A DNA stretch of 64,000 bases from assembly GCF_037040815.1 (NCBI RefSeq), contig NZ_CP146232.1, positions 1,116,001 through 1,180,000 of the forward strand, in the 5' to 3' direction. Made by a program: the position numbers and the translations under genes. The stretch is from Pararoseomonas sp. SCSIO 73927 (lineage in GTDB: Bacteria; Pseudomonadota; Alphaproteobacteria; Acetobacterales; Acetobacteraceae). Of this stretch, positions 11,224 to 24,504 are shown piece by piece (within the stretch, counting starts at the first letter, position 1; each line of letters opens with the position of its first letter). Under the pieces are notes generated by a model, which saw only the letters and a program-made list of their open reading frames with translations, did no database searches and was not told the DNA's origin.

Positions 11224-12204
11224 ATGACCACCCCAATCCCGACGCGCCGGGACGCGCTCCGCCTCGCCCTCCTCGGCGCCACAATTCCCGCCCTGGCGCG
11301 CGCCCAGCCCGGCCGCGGTCCCGTCCGCCTTGTCGTTCCCTACGCCCCCGGCGGCACCAACGACGTCACCGCCCGCCTCCTCGCCGCCCGCCTGGGCGAA
11401 GGCCTCGGTGTCGCCTGCGTCATCGAGAACCGCTCCGGCGCCAGCGGCGCCATCGGCGCGGGGGAGGTTGCCCGCTCCGCCCCCGACGGCCTCACCCTCC
11501 TCTACTCCAACGAGGTTCATCCCATCCTGAAGCTCGTCCAGCGCGGCGTCCCCTTCGACGCCCTGACGGACTTCGCCCCGGTGATCCGCACCGTCAGCAT
11601 CCCCTACGTCCTCGTCGGCGGCACGCGCACGGACCAGACCACCGATCCCCGCGCCCTGCTGGATGCCGTGCGCCGCACCCCGGCGCGCTTCACCTTCGCC
11701 TGCTCCTCCCTCGGCTCCGTCGGCCACCTCGGCGCGGCCGCGCTCGGCCAGAAGCTCGGCGTGGAGGTGACCACCATCATCTATCGCGGCTCCGGCCCGG
11801 CGGTGAACGATCTCATCTCCGGCGCCGTGCCGCTGATGTTCGCCCCTGTCGGCGCCGTGCTGCCGATGATCCAGGGCGGCCAGCTCCGCGCCTTCGCCGT
11901 CACCGCGCCGCAGCGCATCGCCTCCATGCCCGACACCCCCGCCATGCCGGAGGTCGGCCAGCCCGAGATGCTGTTCGAGGGCTGGTGCGGCATCTGGGGC
12001 CCGCGCGGCCTGCCCGAGGAGCGCGTCAGGGCCGTCCATGCCGCCGCCCTGAACGCCCTGAAGGACAATGAGGTGGTGAACCGCCTCGCCGCCATCGGCT
12101 GCACCCCCATCGCCGAGAGCACCGAGGGTTTCACGAGGCTCCTGGCCGCCGAGCAGGCCCGCGGCGCGGCCATCGTCAGGGCCGCCGGCATCACCCCGGA
12201 GTAG
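11224..12204 (+). CDS. Bug-family tricarboxylate/aromatic-acid receptor with Tat-like signal
   Basis: 326 residues. The ATG at 11224 is preferred for its GGAGAG ribosome site; an in-frame ATG at 11200 overlaps the preceding stop (ATGA) and could also serve. The signal has a twin arginine, TRRDALRLALLGA, ending in ALARA. The mature protein begins PVRLVVPYAPGGTNDVTARL and has the IENRSGASGAIGAGEVARS and FAPVG motifs of Bug receptors. It presumably binds the operon's aromatic acid in the periplasm; the membrane TctA/TctB partners are not encoded here. Confidence 0.9.
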   Translation: MTTPIPTRRDALRLALLGATIPALARAQPGRGPVRLVVPYAPGGTNDVTARLLAARLGEGLGVACVIENRSGASGAIGAGEVARSAPDGLTLLYSNEVHPILKLVQRGVPFDALTDFAPVIRTVSIPYVLVGGTRTDQTTDPRALLDAVRRTPARFTFACSSLGSVGHLGAAALGQKLGVEVTTIIYRGSGPAVNDLISGAVPLMFAPVGAVLPMIQGGQLRAFAVTAPQRIASMPDTPAMPEVGQPEMLFEGWCGIWGPRGLPEERVRAVHAAALNALKDNEVVNRLAAIGCTPIAESTEGFTRLLAAEQARGAAIVRAAGITPE

Positions 12205-12407: not shown

Positions 12408-13397
12408 TTGAATCCCCTCCGCCTCTCCCTCGCCATCGGCGACTACGACCGGATCCGCCCCATCGCCGACGGCACGGTCAGGATCGACGGCGTCGATCCC
12501 GTCATGTCGGTCCTCGACCCCGAGGAGATCTTCTTCCGCGCCTTCAAGTACGCCGATTTCGATATCTGCGAGTTGTCGCTGTCCTCCTACACGGTGAAGA
12601 CCGCGAGGGGCGACAGCCCCTACATCGCCGTCCCCGTCTTCCCCTCCCGTGCCTTCCGCCACACCTCCGTCTACATCCGCACGGATCGCGGCATCACGAA
12701 GCCGGAGGACCTGCGAGGCCGCCGTGTCGGCGTGCCGGAGTACCAGCTCACCGCCAACGTCTGGGTCCGCGTTATTCTGGAGGAGTACGGCGTCCGCCCC
12801 TCCGACATCACCTGGGTGCGCGGCGGCTACGAGCATCCCGGCCGCGAGGAGAAGATCGCCGTCCAGCTCCCGCCCGATGTGCGCCTGGAAAGCCTCCCCC
12901 CCGGCGCCACCATCTCTTCCGCCCTGGCGGACGGCACCATCGATGCCGTGATCGGCCCCCGCGCGCCCTCCTGCTTCGAGCGGGGCGCCCCGGATGTCGG
13001 CCGCCTCTGGTCCGACCCCGTCGCCGCCGCCTGCGAGTGGTACGGGAAGCACCGGATCTTTCCCATCATGCACGTCCTCGGCATTCGCAAGGACGTGGCG
13101 GAGAGGCACCGCTACCTCCCCGGCGCCCTGGTGAAGGCCTTCGAGGAGGCCAAGTCCGTCGCCCTCGCGAAGCTCACCAACACCGCCGCAACAAAGGTCA
13201 CCCTGCCCTTCGTGGAGGAGCGCCTGCAGCACGCCCGCACCCTGATGGGCGACGACTTCTGGTCCTACGGGTTGGAAGCGAACCGCCATGGGCTGGACGT
13301 GTTCCTGGAGGCCCACCATGCCCAGGGCCTCTCCTCGCGCCGCCTGGAGCCGGAGGAGCTGTTCCACCCCGCCTCTCTTGAAGCCTTCCGCCTGTGA
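12408..13397 (+). CDS. 4,5-dihydroxyphthalate decarboxylase family protein
   Basis: 329 residues from a TTG start with AGGAG eight bases upstream. It resembles Pht5-type decarboxylases across the N-terminal half: LSLAIGDYDRIRP, then DPEEIFFRAF, the IAVPVFPSRAFRHTSVYIR stretch and DLRGRRVGVPEY. Pht5 converts 4,5-dihydroxyphthalate to protocatechuate and has a periplasmic-binding-protein-like fold without an obvious cofactor motif. No signal peptide is present, so it is cytoplasmic. It closes the phthalate operon; protocatechuate ring cleavage must be encoded elsewhere, since the intradiol enzyme at 3189-4073 is of a different type. Confidence 0.85.
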   Translation: MNPLRLSLAIGDYDRIRPIADGTVRIDGVDPVMSVLDPEEIFFRAFKYADFDICELSLSSYTVKTARGDSPYIAVPVFPSRAFRHTSVYIRTDRGITKPEDLRGRRVGVPEYQLTANVWVRVILEEYGVRPSDITWVRGGYEHPGREEKIAVQLPPDVRLESLPPGATISSALADGTIDAVIGPRAPSCFERGAPDVGRLWSDPVAAACEWYGKHRIFPIMHVLGIRKDVAERHRYLPGALVKAFEEAKSVALAKLTNTAATKVTLPFVEERLQHARTLMGDDFWSYGLEANRHGLDVFLEAHHAQGLSSRRLEPEELFHPASLEAFRL

Positions 13398-13913
13398 CAG
13401 CAGAGGGGGGGGGCCATGGCTGCGCCCATAAGCGGGTGGATGGGGCGGAAGGTGGCCTCCGCTCCCAACCTCGTCGGGAGATGGAGCTGGTGCCGCCTCT
13501 TGGGCGGCGCCCCTCGGCCAGGATAGCGTCCGGGAGGTGCTTCACGGCGCCGTCGCAGAGCGTATCCGGCGACTCCAAGGGGACAGGGCCGCTTGGCGCA
13601 GCGCCGGCGCCCTCGATTTGCTGACCTAGGGCAGGGCGGGCCTGGCGCCGCGGCGGAGCCGCTCGTCGCTGCCCATCGTGTCTCTGCACGGTCGCCTCGT
13701 CCGCCCGGCCAGCGCCGCCAGCACCACCTCTACAGTCCTGCTTTCAGGGCTTTATGGACCGGGGGACGTGCCCTCTCGGCTCCGAAGAGCAGGGGGCTGA
13801 TTCCATCGCTGGGGCCGCACTCACCGATCCGTGCATTCGGCACGGGTGGATTCCGATGGCAGGATTCCCACCAACGGCGCCACGCTCGCCGGCGAAGAAG
13901 GCGGAAACAGCCC
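13398..13913. other. 516-bp intergenic region with no supported gene
   Basis: GC-rich spacer between the decarboxylase and the flavin amine oxidoreductase. Open frames crossing it have biased, low-complexity translations and no recognisable motif. It probably holds the promoter of the downstream operon, but no clear box or operator stands out. Confidence 0.5.
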
Positions 13914-15509
13914 ATGAGCGACACCCCTGCCCCGGTTTCGAGCCGTCGCGACCTCCTCACCCGCATCGGCCTCGCCGCGGGCGGCGGCGCGATGTACCAG
14001 GCCATGACCGCCCTCGGCGTCTCGGCCGCCTCCACCTATGCCGGACCCATCCGGCTGGAGGGCGACCCGAAGGGTGCGTCCGTCCTCATCCTCGGGGCCG
14101 GCGTCGCGGGCATGGTCGCCGCGATGGAGCTTCGCAAGGCCGGCTACCGCGTCCAGGTGCTCGAGTACCGGGAGAAGCCCGGCGGCCGCGTCTGGACCCT
14201 TCGCGGCGGCGATCGCTACACCGAGCTCGGCGGCGCGACGCAGGAGGTCCGCTTCGACGAGGGCGGGTATTTCAACCCCGGGCCATGGCGCATCCCCTAC
14301 AACCACCGGGGCATCCTGGACTACGCGCACCGGCTGAACGTGCCGCTGGAGCCGTTCATCCAGGTCAACCACAACGCCATGGTGCACGGCACCCGCGCCT
14401 TCGGCGGCCGGCCGAAGCGCTACCGCGAGATCATGGCCGACTATCACGGCGGCATCGCGGAGCTCCTCGCCAAGTCCACCCGCCAGGGCAAGCTGGACGG
14501 GATGGTCACGAAGGAGGACGGCGAGATCCTCATCGAATCCCTACGCTCCTTCGGAGCCCTCGACCGGGACCTGAGCTACGCGAAGAACGTGGTGACCGCC
14601 GACCGCCGGGGCTTCGACAAGGACCCGGGCGGCGGGCTCAACGCCCGCCCGGTGCCGTCCGAGCCCATGTCGCTGAAGGATGTCCTCGCCTCGCGCGGCT
14701 GGGCCTATCTCGCCTCGGGCGCGCTCTACGAGTTCCAGATGACGATGTTCCAGCCCGTTGGCGGCATGGACGTGATCGCGCAGGCCATGGCCCGGGAATG
14801 CGGCGAGGCCATCCAATACAATCGCAAGGTCGTCGGCATCCAGCAGGACGGGCGCGGTGTGACCGTCGCCTTCGAGGAGACGGGGCGCCCGGGCCAGGTG
14901 CAACAGGCCCGCGCCGACTACTGCCTGGCCACCATTCCCCTCTCTATCCTCAGCCAGATCGAGATGAACGTCAGTGCCCCCATGGCCGCCGCCATCGGGG
15001 CCGTGCCCTACGCGGCCTCGGTGAAGGTCGGCCTGCAGATGAAGCGACGCTTCTGGGAGCAGGACGAGCACATCTACGCCGGCATCTCCTACACCGACCT
15101 GCCGATCCGGATGATCCAGTACCCGGCCCATGGCTACGGCTCACGCGGCAAGGGCATCCTTCTCGGCGCCTACGCCTTCGGCCCTTATGCCTACGAGTTC
15201 ACCGCCCTGTCGCCGGAGGAACGAGTCCGCCGCGCCGTGGAATGGGGCGCCCAGATCCACCCGCAGTACCGGGCGGAGTTCGACACCGGCGTCTCGGTCG
15301 GCTGGCACCGCGTCCCCTGGGCGCTCGGCTGCAACGGGATGTGGACGGACGCGACGCGCGCGGAGCACTACGACAACCTCTGCGCCCTCGATAACCGCAT
15401 CCTGCTGGCCGGCGAGCACGCCTCCTACATCCCCGCCTGGCAGGAGGGGGCGGTCCTCTCCGCCCTCGACGCCGTCTCCCGCCTCCATCGCCGCGTGGTG
15501 TCCGCATGA
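13914..15509 (+). CDS. Tat-exported flavin monoamine oxidase/dehydrogenase
   Basis: 531 residues; the ATG at 13914 places a twin-arginine signal (SSRRDLLTRIGLAAGGGAMY) at the N-terminus. The FAD-binding Rossmann fold follows at residue 57 (VLILGAGVAGMVAA), with acceptor Glu84 and the GGR motif at 90-92. The C-terminal FAD signature is ILLAGEHASYIPAWQEGAVL. This is the amine oxidase (monoamine oxidase/L-amino acid oxidase/NicA2) superfamily. Because it is exported folded and its gene overlaps one for a cytochrome c, it is more likely a dehydrogenase delivering electrons to that cytochrome than an oxygen-using oxidase (inference). Confidence 0.88.
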   Translation: MSDTPAPVSSRRDLLTRIGLAAGGGAMYQAMTALGVSAASTYAGPIRLEGDPKGASVLILGAGVAGMVAAMELRKAGYRVQVLEYREKPGGRVWTLRGGDRYTELGGATQEVRFDEGGYFNPGPWRIPYNHRGILDYAHRLNVPLEPFIQVNHNAMVHGTRAFGGRPKRYREIMADYHGGIAELLAKSTRQGKLDGMVTKEDGEILIESLRSFGALDRDLSYAKNVVTADRRGFDKDPGGGLNARPVPSEPMSLKDVLASRGWAYLASGALYEFQMTMFQPVGGMDVIAQAMARECGEAIQYNRKVVGIQQDGRGVTVAFEETGRPGQVQQARADYCLATIPLSILSQIEMNVSAPMAAAIGAVPYAASVKVGLQMKRRFWEQDEHIYAGISYTDLPIRMIQYPAHGYGSRGKGILLGAYAFGPYAYEFTALSPEERVRRAVEWGAQIHPQYRAEFDTGVSVGWHRVPWALGCNGMWTDATRAEHYDNLCALDNRILLAGEHASYIPAWQEGAVLSALDAVSRLHRRVVSA

Positions 15510-15976
15510 ACCGCGTCACGTCCACGGCCCTTGCCGCCGCCCTCCTCGCGCTGCCGGCCATCGCGCAGCAGCCGCAGTCCCGGCAGGCCCCGGCCGCTGC
15601 GGGGGCGCCGGCCAGCGCGCAGCAGCGGAGCGAGGGCGCGGCGGCCGACAGCCACGGCTTCGTCTCGGCCACCCGCTTCGGCCAGCGCGACGGCGCCGCC
15701 CTCTACGCCGCCACCTGCGCCGGCTGCCACATGCCGGACGGCCGCGGCGCGGCCGGTGCCGGCCAGTACCCCGCGCTGGCGGGGAACGAGAAGCTGGAAT
15801 ACGCGGCCTACCCCGCGAGCATCGTCCTCAACGGCCTGCGCGGCATGCCGGGCTTCGCGACCCAGATGGATGACGCGCAGGTCGCCGCCGTGGTGAACTA
15901 TGTACGGACCAACCTCGGCAACCGCTACGCCGCGGATCCCGCGACCCCCGACGACGTGAAGGCCCTTCGCCAATGA
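15506..15976 (+). CDS. Secreted monohaem class I cytochrome c
   Basis: 156 residues: a signal peptide ending near ALPAIA, an Ala/Gln-rich linker (residues 21-50), then a single haem motif CAGCH at 71-75. GMPGF supplies a likely distal methionine, and the C-terminal helix is VAAVVNYVRTNLGN. Its start overlaps the amine oxidoreductase stop by four bases and its own stop overlaps the next start, so all three are coupled. It is the likely periplasmic electron acceptor for the flavoenzyme, as CycN is for NicA2 in Pseudomonas. Confidence 0.9.
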   Translation: MNRVTSTALAAALLALPAIAQQPQSRQAPAAAGAPASAQQRSEGAAADSHGFVSATRFGQRDGAALYAATCAGCHMPDGRGAAGAGQYPALAGNEKLEYAAYPASIVLNGLRGMPGFATQMDDAQVAAVVNYVRTNLGNRYAADPATPDDVKALRQ

Positions 15977-16464
15977 TCCGTGCGCTCGCTCTCGCCGCCC
16001 TTCTCTCGGCCGCGGCCCTGCCCGCGGGGGCGCAGGAGGTCACGCGCCACCGCACGCCAGGCTCCAACTTCCCCATCGCCATGGCGGTGGAGGTGCCGGC
16101 AGGCCGCACCCAGGTCCTCGTCAGCGGCATGGTGCCGGCGGTGACGAACCAGGAGGCGCCGCGCAACTCCCTCGCCTCCTTCGGCGACACCCGCGCGCAG
16201 ACGAAATCCGTCCTCGACCGCATCGAGGCCGCACTGCGCTCCATCGGGCTCGGCCTCGGCGACGTCGTGCGGATGCAGGTCTTCCTTGTCGGCGATCCCG
16301 ACAAGGGCGGCCGCATGGACTTCGATGGCTTCATGGCCGCCTACACCGAGCGCTACGGCACCGCGGCGCAGCCCAACCTCCCCGCCCGCTCCGTCATGCA
16401 GGTGGCGGGGCTGGTCAACCCTGGCTGGCTTGTCGAGATCGAGGTCACGGCCGTCCGGCCGTGA
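15973..16464 (+). CDS. Secreted RidA/YjgF-family imine deaminase
   Basis: 163 residues with a signal peptide (MIRALALAALLSAAALPAGA) ahead of a full RidA domain, which is unusual because RidA is normally cytosolic. The conserved C-terminal segment LPARSVMQVAGL keeps the arginine that binds the imine carboxylate in RidA, and VEIEVTAV is the final strand. RidA proteins hydrolyse reactive enamine/imine products of flavin amine oxidation, which fits its place after an exported amine oxidoreductase and cytochrome c. Overlap with the cytochrome gene is ATGA. Confidence 0.88.
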   Translation: MIRALALAALLSAAALPAGAQEVTRHRTPGSNFPIAMAVEVPAGRTQVLVSGMVPAVTNQEAPRNSLASFGDTRAQTKSVLDRIEAALRSIGLGLGDVVRMQVFLVGDPDKGGRMDFDGFMAAYTERYGTAAQPNLPARSVMQVAGLVNPGWLVEIEVTAVRP

Positions 16465-16567
16465 AACCCGGCCGCCCCCTCCCGACATTACGTCCACGCA
16501 CCCGCCGCCGTGAGCCGCCTGCCCATGTCCGGGGTCGGCATGGCCAGGAGCCGAAGCATGCAGCGCG

Positions 16568-17362
16568 TCATGCAGCCCTTGCCTGCAAGGCCCGGCCGAG
16601 CAACGACGCCGCGATGGCCGCCAGAAGCAAGGCCAGTCCGGGGAACACCGCCAGCCAGGGCGCGGCTGTAAGATAGTTCCGGCTCTCCTGCAGGCTCGCC
16701 CCCCAATCCGGTGTCGGGGGCGGCACCCCGAGGCCGAGGAACCCGAGGGCCGCCTGGATCTGCAGCGCCAGCGGGAACAGGATCACGCACTGCAGTGCGA
16801 TCGCCGGCGCGACGTTGCGCAGCACGTGCCGCAGCAGGATGGTGGCCTCCCCGTGGCCGAGCGCGCGCGCCGCCTCGACATAGGCGCGGCCACTCTCCAC
16901 CAGCGCCGCCGCCCGGGCGACGCGGTAGAAGACCGGCAGGTAGATGATGGCCAGGGCGAGCACGAGGTTCCCGGGACCGCTGCCCAGCGTGCTCGCGAGA
17001 ATGACGCCGAGGATGATCGGCGGAAAGGCCAGCAGCGCGTCCGCCATGCGGGAGAGCGCCAGGTCGGTGAACCGCCCCGCGAAGCCCGCCAGCACGCCCA
17101 TTCCGCCGCCGAGCAGCCCCGCCAGACCCATCGCGACGCCGACGATGCCGAGCGTCGTGCCCGCGCCGTGGACGACGCGCGCGTAGACGTCGCGCCCGGT
17201 CTCGTCCGTGCCGAACCAGAACTCTGCCGAGGGCGCTTCTAGGCGCCGTGTGACCGCGACGGCATCGGACGGCCCCGCGAAGAGCCCTGGTGCGACCCCG
17301 ATCGCGAGGAAGAGGGTGCAGAGGGCGAGGCCGATGGCCAGCCCGAGCGGGGCGCGCCGCAT
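16568..17362 (-). CDS. Dpp/Opp-type ABC transporter permease (DppC-like)
   Basis: 264 residues with an N-terminal transmembrane helix, the FGTDETGRDVYARVVHGAG motif characteristic of DppC/OppC, and five further hydrophobic segments. The cytoplasmic EAA loop reads YVEAARALGHGEATILLRHVLRN. Its ATG overlaps the stop of the partner permease by one base (TGATG). With the partner permease, two ATPases and the binding protein it forms a complete importer. It is the last gene of the GntR-headed operon and converges on the secreted RidA gene. Confidence 0.93.
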   Translation of the reverse strand: MRRAPLGLAIGLALCTLFLAIGVAPGLFAGPSDAVAVTRRLEAPSAEFWFGTDETGRDVYARVVHGAGTTLGIVGVAMGLAGLLGGGMGVLAGFAGRFTDLALSRMADALLAFPPIILGVILASTLGSGPGNLVLALAIIYLPVFYRVARAAALVESGRAYVEAARALGHGEATILLRHVLRNVAPAIALQCVILFPLALQIQAALGFLGLGVPPPTPDWGASLQESRNYLTAAPWLAVFPGLALLLAAIAASLLGRALQARAA

Positions 17363-18309
17363 CAGGCCCCCCTCACCCGCGGGTCGATGAGCGCGTAGGT
17401 CAGGTCGATCACCAGGTTGACGAGGAGCGCCACGACGACCGTGAGCAGGAGCGCGCCCTGCAGCACCGGGTAATCGCGCCCCTGGATGGCGGCGAGCAGG
17501 GTGCGCCCCAGTCCGGGGATGCCGAACAGGGTCTCCACCACCACCACGCCTCCGAGGATCTGCACCAGGATCAGCCCGGCATAGGTGACGAGCGGGATCG
17601 CGATGTTGCGCAGGAGGTGGCGGCCGTACACCACCCGCGCCGGCAGGCCGCGTGCCCGCGCGGCCCGGACGAAGTCCTGCCGCATCAGCGCCGCGCTCTG
17701 CTGCCGGGTGAACTGCGCGTAGGCCGCCGCCTGCAGCAGCCCGAGCGCCAGCACCGGCAGCGCGATGCCCTCGAGGTTGTCGGACAGCGAGATGTCCGGC
17801 GGCGTGTAGACGAGCGGCGGGGACCAGCCCAGCCAGCCATCGGCGAGGATCAGGAGCACCATGCCCGTCCAGAAAACGGGCGCGGAGAGGCCGACGAGGG
17901 TGAACCCCTCCACCACCATGTCCGCTACCCCGCCCGGCCGTGCCCCGGCAACCATGCCGAGCGGCACGCCGACGAGGATCGCGAGGAGCAGCGTCGCCAC
18001 CCCGATCTCCAGCGTCACCAGGAAGGCGTCCACCACGATGCCGAGGACGGGCAGGCCCTGGCGCATGGAGGTGCCGAGGTCCCCCTGCAGCACGTCCCCC
18101 GCCCAGGCCAGGTACTGCGCCGTCAGCGGCCGGTCCAGGCCGAAGAAGGCGCGCAGCGCCGCCTCGCTCGCCGGGTCGCCGGCGCTCTGCCCGAGCATCT
18201 CGCCGATGATGTCGCCCGGCACGGCGCGGATCAGCAGGAAGACCACCCCCGTGGCGAGCACGAGGGTGACCAGGGCGGCCCCGATCCGGCGCAGCAGGGC
18301 CTCGATCAT
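17362..18309 (-). CDS. Dpp/Opp-type ABC transporter permease (DppB-like)
   Basis: 315 residues, typical for DppB: an N-terminal helix (IGAALVTLVLATGVVFLLIR), the P-GD-I motif with the FFGLDRPLTAQYLAW periplasmic loop, then a five-helix core. The EAA loop (FVRAARARGLPARVVYGRHL) contacts the ATPase. The C-terminal ALIDPRVRGA is conserved in DppB proteins. It lies 13 bp after the binding-protein gene. Dpp-type systems carry peptides but also opines, glycosides and sugar acids, so the cargo is open. Confidence 0.93.
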   Translation of the reverse strand: MIEALLRRIGAALVTLVLATGVVFLLIRAVPGDIIGEMLGQSAGDPASEAALRAFFGLDRPLTAQYLAWAGDVLQGDLGTSMRQGLPVLGIVVDAFLVTLEIGVATLLLAILVGVPLGMVAGARPGGVADMVVEGFTLVGLSAPVFWTGMVLLILADGWLGWSPPLVYTPPDISLSDNLEGIALPVLALGLLQAAAYAQFTRQQSAALMRQDFVRAARARGLPARVVYGRHLLRNIAIPLVTYAGLILVQILGGVVVVETLFGIPGLGRTLLAAIQGRDYPVLQGALLLTVVVALLVNLVIDLTYALIDPRVRGA

Positions 18310-18322
18310 CGGCGGGCCACCC

Positions 18323-19933
18323 TCACGCCGCGATCCACGCCTTGGCGAGGCCGAACCACCAGCCCGTCGGGTGCTGCACGTAGTTCCGCACCCGCTGCTG
18401 CGCGACGGTCACCAGATCGGGCGAGAAAAGCATCACCGTCGGCGCGCTCGCGTCCAGCACCTTCTGGAAATCCACGTAGGCGGCCTTCCGCCGTGCCGGA
18501 TCGGCGGTCGCCATGCCCGCGTCCAGGAGACGGTCACCCTCCGCGTTGTTCCAGTTGCGGAAGTCCGCGCCCCGCGGCGGGCTGTGGAAGTGCCGGTAGT
18601 AGAGAATGTGCGGGTCGGGCTGGGTGCCCCAGTCGTTGAAGGTGAAGCGCATGTTCCGCGAGCGATAGGCGTTCAGCCAGACGCCGAGCTCCACGCGCTG
18701 GATGTTGAGGCGGATGCCCAGAGGCGCGAGCTGCTGCGCGAGGGTGACCCCGGCCGGGTCCATCCACTCGAAGCCGATGATGCTGATCAGGTCGATGCCG
18801 AAGCCGTCCGGCAGCCCGGCCTCGGCGAGGAGGGCCTTGGCGCGCGCCGGGTCCGTCCGCTGGTTCGGCAGGGCGTCGAGGGGGGCGCCCCAGCTCTCCT
18901 GCATGGCGGCGGGGATGGTGCCGAGCACCTTGCCCTTGCCACCGATGGAGGCCTGCATCACCGCGTTCTTGTCCACGGCGAGGGCGATGGCCTGCCGCAC
19001 GCGCGGGTCCTTCAGCTGCGCGTGGTTGCCATCCAGGTCCAGCGAGCACTGGCGCAGGGAGGAGGTGGCGGTGATGGTGAGGCCGGCCTGTCCCTGCAGC
19101 TGCTCCGCATCCTGCGGGCGGGCGAGCAGGGCCAGGTCAACGCGGCGGCTGCGCAGCGCCACCAGCACGCTCGCGGCGTTGGGCTGCACGCTGAACAGGA
19201 CACCGTCGAGATAGGGCTGGCCCTGGACCCAGTAGTTCGGGAACCGCGCCATCCGGATGTGGCTCTGCGGCCGGAACTCCTGCAGCATGAAGGGGCCGGT
19301 GCCCACCGATTGCTGGGACAGCCGCGCCCGAGCCTGGGGGTTGGCGAAGGTGTCGGCCGGCACCACGCCGCCGAAGCGGTTGGTCAGCGTCATCGGCAGG
19401 GAGGCGTTCGGCTCGGAGAGGCGGACCACCACCGTGTTCTCGTCGGGCGCCGCGATCTCCGCGATCGTGCCGAAATCGAGGGCGCCCGGGCTGCCGTTCG
19501 CGGGGTTTCGCACGTAGTCGTAGCTGTACTTCACGTCGGCCGAGGTCATCGTCCGGCCGGTGTGGAAGCGCACGCCGCGGCGCAGCGCGAAGGTGTAGGT
19601 CAGGCCGTCATCGGAGACCGCCATGGACTCCGCGAGGAGAGGCTTCGCAACCCCCGAGGCGTCCTCGTACATCAGCCCCTGGTACATCAGCAGGGTGACC
19701 GCGGTCCGCGCATCGCCGGCCTGGTGGAAGGGGTCCAGGTTCGGCGGCTCGTTGGCGATGGCCACGGTGAGGGTGCCGCCCCGCCGGGCCTGCGGGTCAT
19801 CCGGCCCGTAAAGCGCCCCGGCGCCCGCGCCCTGCGCGCGGGCCGGCGGCACGGGGCCGCCGCCGAGCAGCCCCGCCCCGGCCAGGAGCGCGGTGCGGCG
19901 GTCGATCATCAGGCGGGGCAGCGAGAGCGGCAT
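18323..19933 (-). CDS. ABC transporter substrate-binding protein (SBP_bac_5/DppA family), Tat-like signal
   Basis: 536 residues from the ATG at 19933, preceded by GGAGGATC. A twin-arginine signal (IDRRTALLAGAGLLGGG) starts at residue 10. The mature protein shows the family markers GGTLTVAIANEPPNLDPF, the FALRRGVRFHTG and TSADVKYSYD stretch, GTGPFMLQEF and DPRVRQAIALAVDK. It delivers a peptide-, glycoside- or sugar-acid-like solute to the permeases encoded just downstream. It follows the RidA gene with a 54-bp gap. Confidence 0.92.
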   Translation of the reverse strand: MPLSLPRLMIDRRTALLAGAGLLGGGPVPPARAQGAGAGALYGPDDPQARRGGTLTVAIANEPPNLDPFHQAGDARTAVTLLMYQGLMYEDASGVAKPLLAESMAVSDDGLTYTFALRRGVRFHTGRTMTSADVKYSYDYVRNPANGSPGALDFGTIAEIAAPDENTVVVRLSEPNASLPMTLTNRFGGVVPADTFANPQARARLSQQSVGTGPFMLQEFRPQSHIRMARFPNYWVQGQPYLDGVLFSVQPNAASVLVALRSRRVDLALLARPQDAEQLQGQAGLTITATSSLRQCSLDLDGNHAQLKDPRVRQAIALAVDKNAVMQASIGGKGKVLGTIPAAMQESWGAPLDALPNQRTDPARAKALLAEAGLPDGFGIDLISIIGFEWMDPAGVTLAQQLAPLGIRLNIQRVELGVWLNAYRSRNMRFTFNDWGTQPDPHILYYRHFHSPPRGADFRNWNNAEGDRLLDAGMATADPARRKAAYVDFQKVLDASAPTVMLFSPDLVTVAQQRVRNYVQHPTGWWFGLAKAWIAA

Positions 19934-19987
19934 GGGGCAGATCCTCCGGTCGGCAGCGTGCGTGAGGGACGGCGTTCTCCGTGGTTC

Positions 19988-20449
19988 CTAGTCGTGCAGG
20001 GCGAAGACGAACTCGATCTCCACCGGCACGTTTCGCGGCAGCATGGCCACGCCCACGGCGCTGCGGGCATGGCGCCCTGCCTCGCCGAAGACCTGCCCCA
20101 TGATGTTGGAGGCGGCATCGACGACCCGCGGCTGGTCCACGAAGCCCGGGGCGGAAGCGACGAAGCCCGTCAGCTTCACCACGCGCGCCACCGCGTCCAG
20201 CGACCCCGTCACGGAGCGCAGGGCGGCCAGGCCCTGCAGCGCGCAGAGCGCGGCCGCCTGCCGCCCGGCCTCCAGCTCCACCTCCTCGCCCAGCCGGCCG
20301 AGCACGGGCAGGTTGCCTTCCGCGTCGCGCGGCAACTGCCCGCTGACCCAGACCAGCCCGCGGTCGATCACGGCCGGGACGTAGTCGAAGGCCGGCTTCG
20401 GCAGGGGCGGCAGCGTCAGGCCCAATTCGGCCAGTCTCGCCTCGTGCAT
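19988..20449 (-). CDS. Cytosolic RidA-family protein
   Basis: 153 residues with no signal peptide. It belongs to the larger RidA-like subgroup (LAELGLTLPPLPKPAFDYVP at the start, then VWVSGQLPRDAEGN). The C-terminal ARSAVGVAMLPRNVPVEIEFV keeps the family arginine. The ATG at 20449 overlaps the epimerase stop by one base (TGATG); a GTG three bases upstream is an alternative. Sitting between the NAD-epimerase and the ABC importer, it may quench an enamine or imine formed during catabolism of the imported solute (inference). Confidence 0.85.
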   Translation of the reverse strand: MHEARLAELGLTLPPLPKPAFDYVPAVIDRGLVWVSGQLPRDAEGNLPVLGRLGEEVELEAGRQAAALCALQGLAALRSVTGSLDAVARVVKLTGFVASAPGFVDQPRVVDAASNIMGQVFGEAGRHARSAVGVAMLPRNVPVEIEFVFALHD

Positions 20450-21374
20450 CACGCGGCCTCCATGAGTTCCGTGAGGGATTCGGACAGGATGGCGTCCAGG
20501 TCCCGCGCCGCGCGCCAGCCCAGGGCGCGCAGGGCGGCATCGTCCACCAGCGGCAGCTCGGGTTCACCAGGCTCCGCGCGCGCCGTGATCAGGCCAGGCC
20601 CGGCCAGCCCGTCCAGCACGGCCGCGATCCCGGCATGGGTGACGGTGAGCCCCGCCATGTTCAGCCGGCGCGGCGGCGCCTCGTGGCGCGCCAGCAGCAG
20701 CAGCGCGGCGGCCGCGTCGTCGCCGTGCACCGCGTCGAAGGGGGTGTCGGGCACCGTGAGGTCCAGCGGCTCGCGCGACGCCGCCGCCCGCAGCATGCGC
20801 GCGTAGAGGGTGGCCGCGCCGGCGTACCAGCGCCCCGGGCCGAGCACGAGCGGCAGGCGCAGCGTGACGACGGAGAGGCCCAGCGCGTCCGCGCCCCAGT
20901 CCGCCGCCATCTCGGCCATCTGCTTCGACAGGCCGTAGGCGCTCCGCGGCGCTGTCCGCGCCGCCTCGTCCACCCGGCCGGGCGCGTAGACGGAGGGCGG
21001 ACCGTAGACGACGGTGGAGCCGCACCCCACCACCCGCGGCACGCCGGCCCTCCCGCAGGCCGCCAGGGCCGCGGCGAAGCCGCCGGCATTCACCGAGATG
21101 CCGCCGGCCGGATCCTCGATTGCCGCACGGGCCAGCCCATCGCCGGCCGGGTTGTGCCCGGCGGCCCAGACCAGCGCCTCCGGCCGGAAGGCCCGCAGGG
21201 CCGCCTCCAGCGCGCCCGGCGCCTCGGCGCGCCCGTCGAAGCGCGCCACGCCGTCACCGCGATCCGCCTCTCCCGGCCCGAAGGATGCGACCTGCAGCCC
21301 GGCGGCCATGGCCTGCCGCAGCAGCCTGCCGCCGACGAAGCCGCTTCCGCCCACGACGAGAAGGCGCTCCACGC

Positions 21375-21378
<4 letters not shown>
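20449..21378 (-). CDS. NAD-dependent epimerase/dehydratase (extended SDR)
   Basis: 309 residues. The N-terminus is LLVVGGSGFVGGRLLRQA, the GxxGxxG nucleotide site, with the catalytic motif SAYGLSKQMAE (Tyr-x-x-x-Lys) and a preceding GCGSTVVYG serine. Relatives include nucleotide-sugar epimerases and uronate or aldonate dehydrogenases. In an operon with an MR/MLE dehydratase and an ABC importer, a sugar-acid dehydrogenase or epimerase role is more plausible than cell-wall synthesis (inference). Its ATG overlaps the upstream ATPase stop (ATGA). Confidence 0.87.
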
Positions 21379-22354
<976 letters not shown>

Positions 22355-22358
<4 letters not shown>

Positions 22359-23356
22359 GCCAGCGCCTCCCAGCGGATGCAGCGGCTGCGCCGCCCGGGC
22401 GCGACGTCGATGAGCGGGATCGGGGCCTCGCGGCACGCCTGCACCGCCAGGGCGCAGCGGTCCGCGAAGCGGCAGTGCGGGGGCGGCGCGAGCGGGTTCG
22501 GCATCAGCCCGGGGATGCCGCGCGGCGGCGGGCCCTCCTGCGCGGGGATGCAGTCCAGCAGCGCGCGGGTGTAGGGATGCAGCGGTGCGGACAGAACCTC
22601 GGCTGCGGGCCCCTCCTCCACCACCTGCCCCGCGTAGAGCACGAGGAGGCGCTGCGCGACCTCCGCCACCAGGCCGAGATCGTGGCTGACGAAGATCATC
22701 GCCATGCCTCGCTCCCGCTGCAGGTCGCGCAGCAGTTCCACGATCTGCGCCTGGATGGTGACGTCCAGCGCCGTGGTCGGCTCGTCCGCGATCAGCAGGC
22801 GGGGCTCGCCGGCGAGCGCGAGGGCGATGACGGCCCGCTGGCGCATGCCGCCGGAGAGCTGGTGGGGGTACTCGCCGGCCCGGCGCGCCGGATCGGGGAT
22901 GCCGACGAGGCGCAGCAGTTCCACCGCGCGCGCCGCCGCCTCCCGCCGCCCGAGGCGGAGCAGGTGGCGCAGCGTCTCCGCGATCTGGTCGCCGACCGTG
23001 AAGAGCGGGTCGAGCGCGCTGCCGGGGTCCTGGAAGACCACGGCGATCTCCCGCCCGCGCACGCGGCGCAGCCCCTCCCCCCGCAGCGCGAGGAGATCGA
23101 CCGGCTCGCCGCCCCGGCCGCGCCAGCGGAGGTCGCCCTCCGCGCGCGTGCCCGGCTCCCCGGCCTTCATCCGCGCCACCGCCATGGCGGTCACCGACTT
23201 GCCGCTGCCGCTCTCCCCCACCAGGGCGAGCGTCTCGCCCGCCTTCACCGCGAAGGAGACGTGGGCGACCGCCGTCACCCAGCCGCGCGCGCCGAGGAAG
23301 CTGATGGAGAGACCGTCCGCTGCCAGCAGCGGAGAGGGGGCGGGCTGCGCGCTCAC
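22355..23356 (-). CDS. Dpp/Opp-type ABC transporter ATPase (DppD-like)
   Basis: 333 residues. Walker A is GESGSGKS, the signature LSGGMRQRAVIALALAGEP, and Walker B is followed by DEPTTALDVT. The C-terminal region has LHPYTRALLDCIP and CRFADRCALAVQAC, as in DppD/OppD. Its start overlaps the enolase-family gene's stop by four bases, so the dehydratase, both ATPases and the epimerase are produced from a coupled message. Confidence 0.94.
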
Positions 23357-24504
23357 CGGGGACGGAAGCGCTCGAGCGCGGCGCGGTCCGGCTCGACGCC
23401 GAGGCCGGGAGTGGAAGGCACGGCGATCGCCCCTCCGGAGGGCAGGAGCGGCTCGCGGAACAGCTCGTCACGCAGCGGGTTCTCGGCCACGTCGTACTCG
23501 ATCCAGGGCGGGTCCACCTCGCTCTCGGCCACGCCGGGATAGGCGGGCTGGGCGGCCACGAGCTGCACGGCCGCGGCCAGCCCCAACCCCGTGCCCCAGA
23601 CATGCGGGGAGAGGCGCGCGTGGCGCAGGGTGCAGAGCTGCCCGATCAGCCGCCCCTGGGAGAGGCCACCGCAGAGGGCGAGGTCGGGCTGCGCGATGTC
23701 GATGGCGCGCGGGGCGAGCAGCCGATCGAAGGCGAAGGCGGTGTAGAGCGCCTCCCCCGTGGCGACGGGGATCTCCCGCCGCGCGTAGAGGGCCCGGAAG
23801 CCCTCCTCGTCCAGGGGACCCAGCGGTTCCTCGTACCACTCGATCCCGAAGGGCGAGATGGCGCGCATGCTGGCCTGCACCTGGTCCAACCCGTAGTTGC
23901 CGTTCGCGTCCACCGCGATCCGCATGGCATCGCCCAGCGTCTCCCGCGCCAGTCGCACGCGCGCCACGTCGTCCGCCACGCCGCGCCCGATCTTGATCTT
24001 GCAGCAGGCGAAGTCCCGGAACCGGGGAAGCTGCGCGGCCAGGCCCTGCGCCGGATCGGCGGTGAAGTAGCCGCCCGAGCCATAGACCGTGACCGTGTCC
24101 CGCGCGCGCCCGCCGATCAGCGCGTGGGCGGGCAGCCCGTGCTCCTTCCCCAGCGCGTCGTGCACGGCCATGTCGAGGCCAGAGAGCAGCGCCATCAGCC
24201 CGTTCTGGAGGCCGAAGTGGTAGTTCCGCGCGAGGACGCGGTGGAACAGCGCGCCGTGGTCGGACAGGCGGGCGCCGCGCCAGTCCGCCTCCACGAAGCC
24301 AAGATAGGGTGCGCAGAAGCCGGGGGGACCCCAGGCCTCGCCGAAGCCGCTGGTTCCGGTGTTCGTCTCGATCTCCACGATGGTGGCGCCGCGGGCGGAG
24401 ACGAGGCCGCGCGCCATGCCGTAGGCATTCTCCTCCCCCATGACGTGCAGCACGGGGTGCAGCGCGATGCGGGCGATGCGGGCCATCGTATCGGGCAGGG
24501 TCAT
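23353..24504 (-). CDS. Mandelate racemase/muconate lactonizing enzyme family protein (enolase superfamily)
   Basis: 383 residues with a full enolase-superfamily active site: the K-x-K base (CKIKIGRG), metal ligands in VDANGNYG, EWYEEP and ATGEA, and the histidine base of the MR subgroup in LSPHVWGTGLG. Acid-sugar dehydratases of this subgroup use exactly this Lys/His pair. Coupling to a GntR regulator and a Dpp-type importer suggests dehydration of an imported sugar acid or related hydroxy acid; the exact substrate is not readable. Confidence 0.9.
   Translation of the reverse strand: MTLPDTMARIARIALHPVLHVMGEENAYGMARGLVSARGATIVEIETNTGTSGFGEAWGPPGFCAPYLGFVEADWRGARLSDHGALFHRVLARNYHFGLQNGLMALLSGLDMAVHDALGKEHGLPAHALIGGRARDTVTVYGSGGYFTADPAQGLAAQLPRFRDFACCKIKIGRGVADDVARVRLARETLGDAMRIAVDANGNYGLDQVQASMRAISPFGIEWYEEPLGPLDEEGFRALYARREIPVATGEALYTAFAFDRLLAPRAIDIAQPDLALCGGLSQGRLIGQLCTLRHARLSPHVWGTGLGLAAAVQLVAAQPAYPGVAESEVDPPWIEYDVAENPLRDELFREPLLPSGGAIAVPSTPGLGVEPDRAALERFRPR

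Follow-up and report, generated by a model that had tools for sequence, protein, structure and literature searches.

A lao-cccA-ridA-type operon of Pararoseomonas sp. SCSIO 73927 that probably encodes a periplasmic, cytochrome c-linked L-amino acid dehydrogenase and a dedicated imine hydrolase

The closest described counterpart of the operon analysed here is the lao-cccA-ridA cluster (GDI2456-GDI2455-GDI2454) of Gluconacetobacter diazotrophicus PAL5, published by Rodrigues et al. in 2016 (PMC5053998). Two Tn5 insertions in PAL5 lao made synthesis of the auxin indole-3-acetic acid (IAA) from tryptophan undetectable, and PAL5 mutants in cytochrome c maturation kept ~5% of their IAA (Lee et al. 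2004, as cited in PMC5053998), a result compatible with electron transfer to a cytochrome c. The authors recognized a twin-arginine translocation (Tat) signal on the L-amino acid oxidase (LAAO), noted conservation in Caulobacter and Xanthomonas, and hypothesized that the three proteins cooperate; the passages of their paper on which we draw do not mention export of RidA and leave the electron acceptor to further work (PMC5053998). We analysed a stretch of 64,000 nucleotides of Pararoseomonas sp. SCSIO 73927 (contig NZ_CP146232.1, positions 1,116,001 to 1,180,000; hereafter the window), in whose open reading frame (ORF) listing a lao-like, a cccA-like, and a ridA-like gene stand consecutively, in that order and all on the forward strand.

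Several other descriptions bear on this gene set. Niehaus et al. (2015) reported that Rid3 genes cluster with genes for flavin adenine dinucleotide (FAD)-dependent amine oxidases (PMC4433059), in a paper whose main text does not contain the words “cytochrome”, “signal”, or “periplasm”. Akram et al. (2025) found that most Tat-exported flavoenzymes encoded next to a cytochrome favour it over O2, whereas most of those lacking such a neighbour react fast with O2 (PMC12224317). Their pairs, NicA2/CycN and Pnao among them, resemble the window's genes in joining a Tat flavoenzyme to an adjacent Sec-exported monohaem cytochrome c as acceptor; they differ in that they were found by a BLAST search with NicA2, whereas the window enzyme groups with LAAOs, and in that Rid occurs nowhere in that paper (0 occurrences). 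The periplasmic LAO1/LAO2(RIDA) complex of Chlamydomonas likewise pairs an LAAO with a Rid, both of them exported, although it is eukaryotic and no cytochrome is named in the passages that describe it to us (PMC10805672, PMC5053998). A literature search on exported Rid proteins, NicA2-type pairs, and the three-gene set, covering open-licence PMC articles, yielded PMC5053998 and, on Chlamydomonas, PMC10805672. The first-pass annotation of this DNA had suggested an undescribed system; lao-cccA-ridA was in print in 2016 from the same bacterial family (PMC5053998), and the Rid3 clustering and the Tat-flavoenzyme/cytochrome pairs also precede it (PMC4433059, PMC12224317). That annotation had further held signal-bearing RidA proteins to be uncommon; an exported-type Rid is indeed present here, but the Chlamydomonas complex provides a precedent (PMC5053998, PMC10805672).

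We searched 397 genomes of the window's family for one of the published PAL5 primers (PMC5053998), and found it in two, G296 and G265. All six published primers match G296 exactly and in order, with amplicons of 152, 220, and 214 bases (by subtraction) as published, and we therefore take G296 to be PAL5 or a near strain; five of the six match G265. The PAL5-type cluster of G296 has the same three genes in the same order, a Tat-type flavoenzyme, and a Rid whose N-terminus is signal-like by reading; its proteins share with those of the window 53% identity over 521 residues (flavoenzyme), 55% over 95 (cytochrome), and 49% over 148 (Rid). The difference is that the PAL5 cluster has been tied by mutation to IAA.

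We consider it likely that the window's operon is a member of the lao-cccA-ridA family and encodes a periplasmic, cytochrome c-linked L-amino acid dehydrogenase together with its own imine hydrolase. In the mechanism we propose, the Tat-exported FAD enzyme would oxidize an L-amino acid in the periplasm, giving a 2-imino acid and FADH2; the reduced flavin would hand its two electrons singly to the co-encoded cytochrome c, which would feed them into the respiratory chain, and H2O2 would scarcely be formed, if at all; and the exported Rid3 would hydrolyse the imino acid to a 2-oxo acid and ammonium. The transfer of electrons to the cytochrome is proposed by analogy with related enzymes and with the published genetics. 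The first-pass annotation had described three overlapping genes for a Tat flavoenzyme, a monohaem cytochrome c, and a signal-bearing Rid, and the ORFs, the ATGA joints, the motifs as read, and the Pfam matches (Amino_oxidase, PF01593, 5.5e-54; Cytochrome_CBB3, PF13442, 2.5e-15; Ribonuc_L-PSP, PF01042, 3e-16) bear this out; its reading of them as an exported dehydrogenation set, with cytochrome c as the likely acceptor and an imine hydrolase, gains support from the related enzymes and the PAL5 genetics. The operon is real and functionally coherent, and ordinary in kind.

The flavoenzyme is closest among solved structures to the LAAO 2jae (1.9e-85 searched as a single sequence, 5.6e-141 when a profile of 17 sequences was used), to which it is 38% identical across 462 aligned residues, and the next PDB matches are ancestral tetrapod and other LAAOs. 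We take 2jae to be the enzyme of Rhodococcus opacus (RoLAAO), the name it also bears in the comparison of Rodrigues et al. The profile search matched 57 PDB sequences at E <=1e-20, each listed under one chain with its names and as many as seven further codes, and NicA2 did not appear among them. Because LAAOs are the closest matches and NicA2 was not seen there, the flavoenzyme is classed by its sequence as LAAO type, and the NicA2-type identity implied by the comparison in the first-pass annotation is rejected. By this PDB comparison its nearest relatives are likewise not the NicA2/Pnao-type enzymes that make up clades 1–3 of Akram et al. Three residues, Arg126, Tyr420, and Trp509, are invariant in all 17 aligned flavoenzymes (17 of the 20 places found in the 100-genome survey described below; L003, L014, and L019 were left out), and the corresponding Arg, Tyr, and Trp of RoLAAO presumably act in its active site. 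The RoLAAO residue aligned with Arg126 is, as we take it, Arg84, the binder of the substrate carboxylate, and R126 thus places an arginine at the position presumed to mark the L-amino acid oxidase/dehydrogenase group. Homology to the PAL5 cluster and its genetics, kinship with LAAOs, and the invariance of these three residues together argue for an L-amino acid as the probable substrate.

The cytochrome is the most constant partner of the flavoenzyme. We examined the best 80 of at least 590 confirmed flavoenzyme matches (58–94% identity; hereafter named relatives), and a cytochrome match stands directly behind the flavoenzyme gene in 79 of them, an adjacency that we regard, on account of this frequency, as more than chance. 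At the sole exception, L062, a different small ORF occupies the cytochrome position, and no CXXCH was read in it. All 79 cytochromes contain exactly one CXXCH, and 78 have an N-terminus that passes the signal script described below (L056 fails). The genome encodes both export and haem machinery, namely TatC and a CcmF/NrfE-type haem lyase; these genes, the adjacency, and the single haem per protein argue for the cytochrome as the probable acceptor. The flavoenzyme bears SRRDLL at residues 10–15, and by motif and hydrophobicity the locus combines a Tat motif with an adjacent exported-type cytochrome c, the signposts that marked mostly cytochrome-preferring enzymes in the study of Akram et al. 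(PMC12224317) and that point in the same direction here. KR replaces RR in the Tat motif of six named relatives, mostly sphingomonads (L071, L079, L093, L094, L097, and L101).

The third protein, whose N-terminus reads MIRALALAALLSAAALPAGAQ, has PFL_1385 (9bkc, 2.3e-33) and PSPTO_3006 (9bka, 7.2e-32) as its nearest solved relatives. Rid3 proteins are marked by retention of an Arg, common to RidA and Rid1-3 and needed for imine hydrolysis in RidA, together with replacement of a Tyr by Ile (PMC4433059). Both marks are found here: Arg139 in all 54 aligned rows and Ile35, paired with the Tyr position by reading of the PY/PI motif, in 53 of 54, in an alignment that takes in two reference pieces and some near-duplicates (one locus entered twice, as in L004/L022 and L005/L023) and leaves out L001, L066, L076, and L097. 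The window's Rid is accordingly placed, by sequence, in the Rid3 subfamily, with a putative role as imine deaminase. In the presence of PFL_1385 or PSPTO_3006, which have these Rid3 residues in common with it, less of the imines from an LAAO and less of the iminoarginine from DauA was trapped (PMC5619798); this activity, together with the Rid3 signature, argues that the window's Rid may act on the product of the flavoenzyme.

The calling of signal peptides rests on inspection of the sequences and on a simple hydrophobicity script, not on SignalP. The script picks, 12–50 residues upstream of an anchor, the start codon that gives the most hydrophobic N-terminus, and it therefore leans towards finding signals. 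The first-pass annotation had asked whether the Rid proteins of such clusters carry signals, and all 42 Rids adjacent to a cytochrome in the named relatives have a charged, hydrophobic, signal-like N-terminus by this script, with scores, each the average hydropathy of the ten best residues, of 1.82–2.87 (one of the two frames being used for L076); the window's own Rid scores 2.34. The window's genome has 14 Rid-family matches in total, and 12 of the 13 others, used as a control with slightly different start limits, score <=1.78, a narrow gap; the remaining one, L107, scores 2.22, yet it is without an N-terminal extension and has four acidic residues. A test for A-x-A did not discriminate, being true in every control row too. 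By reading, the plainest separation of adjacent from control Rids is an N-terminal extension of 20–30 residues.

Conservation was followed in two samples. In a survey of 100 genomes around the window's, its own included, the flavoenzyme (cut-off E 1e-30) was matched in 19 genomes, at 20 places, and the absences in this survey are soft because scoring was limited, in most genomes, to the 14 top candidates. At flavoenzyme identities of at least 49%, the cytochrome is present at 11 of 11 places and the Rid at 10 of 11; a further place, at 43%, carries cytochrome and Rid alike, the Rid lying upstream; and at the eight places at 35–41% (L013–L020) neither was seen within 1.5 kb flanks (the upstream flank of L014 being short). 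At L012 (924–3443) the gene order is Rid, flavoenzyme, cytochrome, and this locus forms a long branch in the tree. Within the genus, 4 of 15 genomes have the flavoenzyme gene, again counting the window's own. Among the 80 named relatives, 44 loci have a Rid match, 42 directly behind the cytochrome and two elsewhere in the locus; 35 have none, and one locus is cut short. In the metagenome-derived contig of L076 (7579–8561), the Rid gene is apparently split over two frames.

On a tree of 91 rows, built by a quick method, Rid presence must have changed no fewer than 17 times, compared with a mean of 28.6 when labels are shuffled, so the Rid is clustered on the tree but labile. The window and PAL5-type rows lie inside a shared part of 88 rows (99), in separate sub-clades. 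The three-gene set that the first-pass annotation had presented as fixed is, given this number of changes, not fixed: the flavoenzyme–cytochrome pair holds throughout almost all of the named relatives, and the adjacent Rid in 42 of 80. The cytochrome is the near universal partner, and the Rid a labile third gene. Twenty of the 37 genomes without an adjacent Rid were sent to a whole-genome search, and 14 of these have a similar Rid elsewhere, exported-looking by eye in 13 (not in L131); in four of the 14 the distant Rid comes after another flavoenzyme–cytochrome pair. In three of the 14 (L128, L129, and L132) an exported-looking Rid, lipoprotein-like by eye in L129, adjoins a flavoenzyme with no cytochrome match within 1.5 kb flanks; these are perhaps an oxidase–Rid variant. 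We incline to the view that the window's enzyme belongs to a wide clade, found mostly in proteobacteria and apart from the NicA2 clades, whose members are periplasmic L-amino acid dehydrogenases; in it a dedicated cytochrome c would replace O2, and a dedicated exported Rid3 imine hydrolase would have been repeatedly gained or lost.

Several observations weigh against the proposed cytochrome-linked mechanism or against its transfer from PAL5 to the window. An adjacent Rid is absent at 37 of the 79 assessable named relatives, so the Rid must be dispensable for the reaction. Transcripts of cccA and ridA were also lowered in a PAL5 lao mutant, as measured in one mutant (PMC5053998), and the part of each PAL5 gene is therefore not separated. 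Many rhizobial flavoenzymes are nearer to the window's (up to 65% identity) than is the PAL5-type enzyme (53%), so the window's cluster is a homologue, and at most a possible strict orthologue, of that of PAL5. Since the sample of Akram et al. came from a search with NicA2, its rule is here extended to another group; and within that sample the clade 1 pairs were only modestly reactive, and the B. anthina pair used both O2 and cytochrome (PMC12224317). No assay of a clade member with its own cytochrome versus O2 was found in the open-licence PMC literature.

The alternative that accommodates part of these points is a periplasmic oxidase that makes H2O2 from L-amino acids, with a cytochrome that handles peroxide or is incidental. 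RoLAAO, the best solved relative, and the other leading PDB matches carry the name of oxidase, and the dual B. anthina pair and the fast reaction with O2 of most Tat flavoenzymes that have no cytochrome neighbour fit this alternative as well. We nevertheless consider it unlikely, as the cytochrome is adjacent in nearly all named relatives, compared with none near the eight distant flavoenzymes in their 1.5 kb flanks, and as PAL5 cytochrome maturation mutants lose most of their IAA (PMC5053998). It is decidedly improbable that the operon serves an auxin (IAA) pathway in the window's host as in PAL5: the homology to lao-cccA-ridA speaks for such a role, but no gene passes TIGR03394 (indolepyruvate/phenylpyruvate decarboxylase; best score 113.5 of 554.5 bits), the single model tried and one passed by none of 14 control genomes either, and general amino acid use is the simpler explanation. 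As nothing in the genome passes this model, the auxin role is not carried over by itself, and we reject it as the default for this host. Finally, a NicA2- or Pnao-like dehydrogenase acting on one particular amine other than an amino acid would share the gene architecture and export signals of NicA2/CycN (PMC12224317), but is very improbable given the invariant Arg at the presumed substrate Arg position of LAAOs, the 57 PDB matches at E <=1e-20 in which NicA2 was not seen, and the genetic tie of the PAL5 homologue to tryptophan (PMC5053998).

Features of the operon, with positions counted from the first nucleotide of the window
Feature	Position	Strand	Basis
lao-like FAD L-amino acid oxidoreductase (predicted), 531 aa from ATG at 13914	13914..15509	+	PF01593; best solved relative 2jae
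Twin-arginine codons R11 R12 of Tat signal	13944..13949	+	invariant 17/17; RR 74/80, KR 6/80 named relatives
Arg126 codon, in NPGPWRIP	14289..14291	+	invariant 17/17; aligns with Arg of NVGATRIP in 2jae
ATGA overlap, flavoenzyme stop / cytochrome start	15506..15509	+	ORF reading
cccA-like monohaem cytochrome c, 156 aa, Sec-type N-terminus	15506..15976	+	PF13442/PF00034
Haem-binding CAGCH, residues 71-75, single per protein	15716..15730	+	CXXCH reading
ATGA overlap, cytochrome stop / Rid start	15973..15976	+	ORF reading
Putative Rid3-type imine deaminase, 163 aa, Sec-type signal at ~residues 1-20 by reading	15973..16464	+	PF01042; PFL_1385/PSPTO_3006
Conserved Rid Arg codon, R139 in PARS	16387..16389	+	R in 54/54 aligned rows

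Scans of positions 13380–16620 for promoters and terminators returned none of either. The operon lies ~500 bases downstream of genes for NMT1/phosphonate-type (12408–13397) and TctC-type (~11230–12204) substrate-binding proteins, both on the forward strand. A second Rid-family gene of the window (19988–20452, reverse strand), without a signal peptide by reading, sits in a convergent operon (~16568–24504) together with peptide-type ATP-binding cassette (ABC) transporter, epimerase-like, and enolase-superfamily-like genes, named by reading. Membership in a defence system was considered and rejected: the flavoenzyme matches one desaturase-type PADLOC model (1.8e-43), which we read as generic similarity among FAD enzymes, the Rid reaches 0.00087 against PD-T4-2_B, and the cytochrome has no match. 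A plasmid scan gave 36 records; of the four opened, two have all three genes and two the flavoenzyme and cytochrome only, although the PLSDB gene tables are incomplete. One copy of the flavoenzyme–cytochrome pair (L138) is on pRtrCIAT899b of the nodule bacterium Rhizobium tropici CIAT 899; this plasmid is classified as conjugative, and a gene for a group II intron reverse transcriptase follows the pair downstream. Genes for introns, transposases, or recombinases also lie close to the other three opened copies.

In conclusion, the window adds one more member to a described gene set, and the idea of its cooperation has already been published. If the clade-wide view given above is correct, respiratory dehydrogenases would be hidden among the enzymes of Xanthomonas, Dyella, rhizobia, and Acetobacteraceae to which an annotation as L-amino acid or monoamine oxidase would be given. 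Should assays show the clade as a whole to be cytochrome-linked, many genes now called oxidase would encode respiratory enzymes that produce little peroxide, the periplasm would have an imine clearance of its own, and the need for cytochrome c maturation in the auxin synthesis of G. diazotrophicus would be explained.

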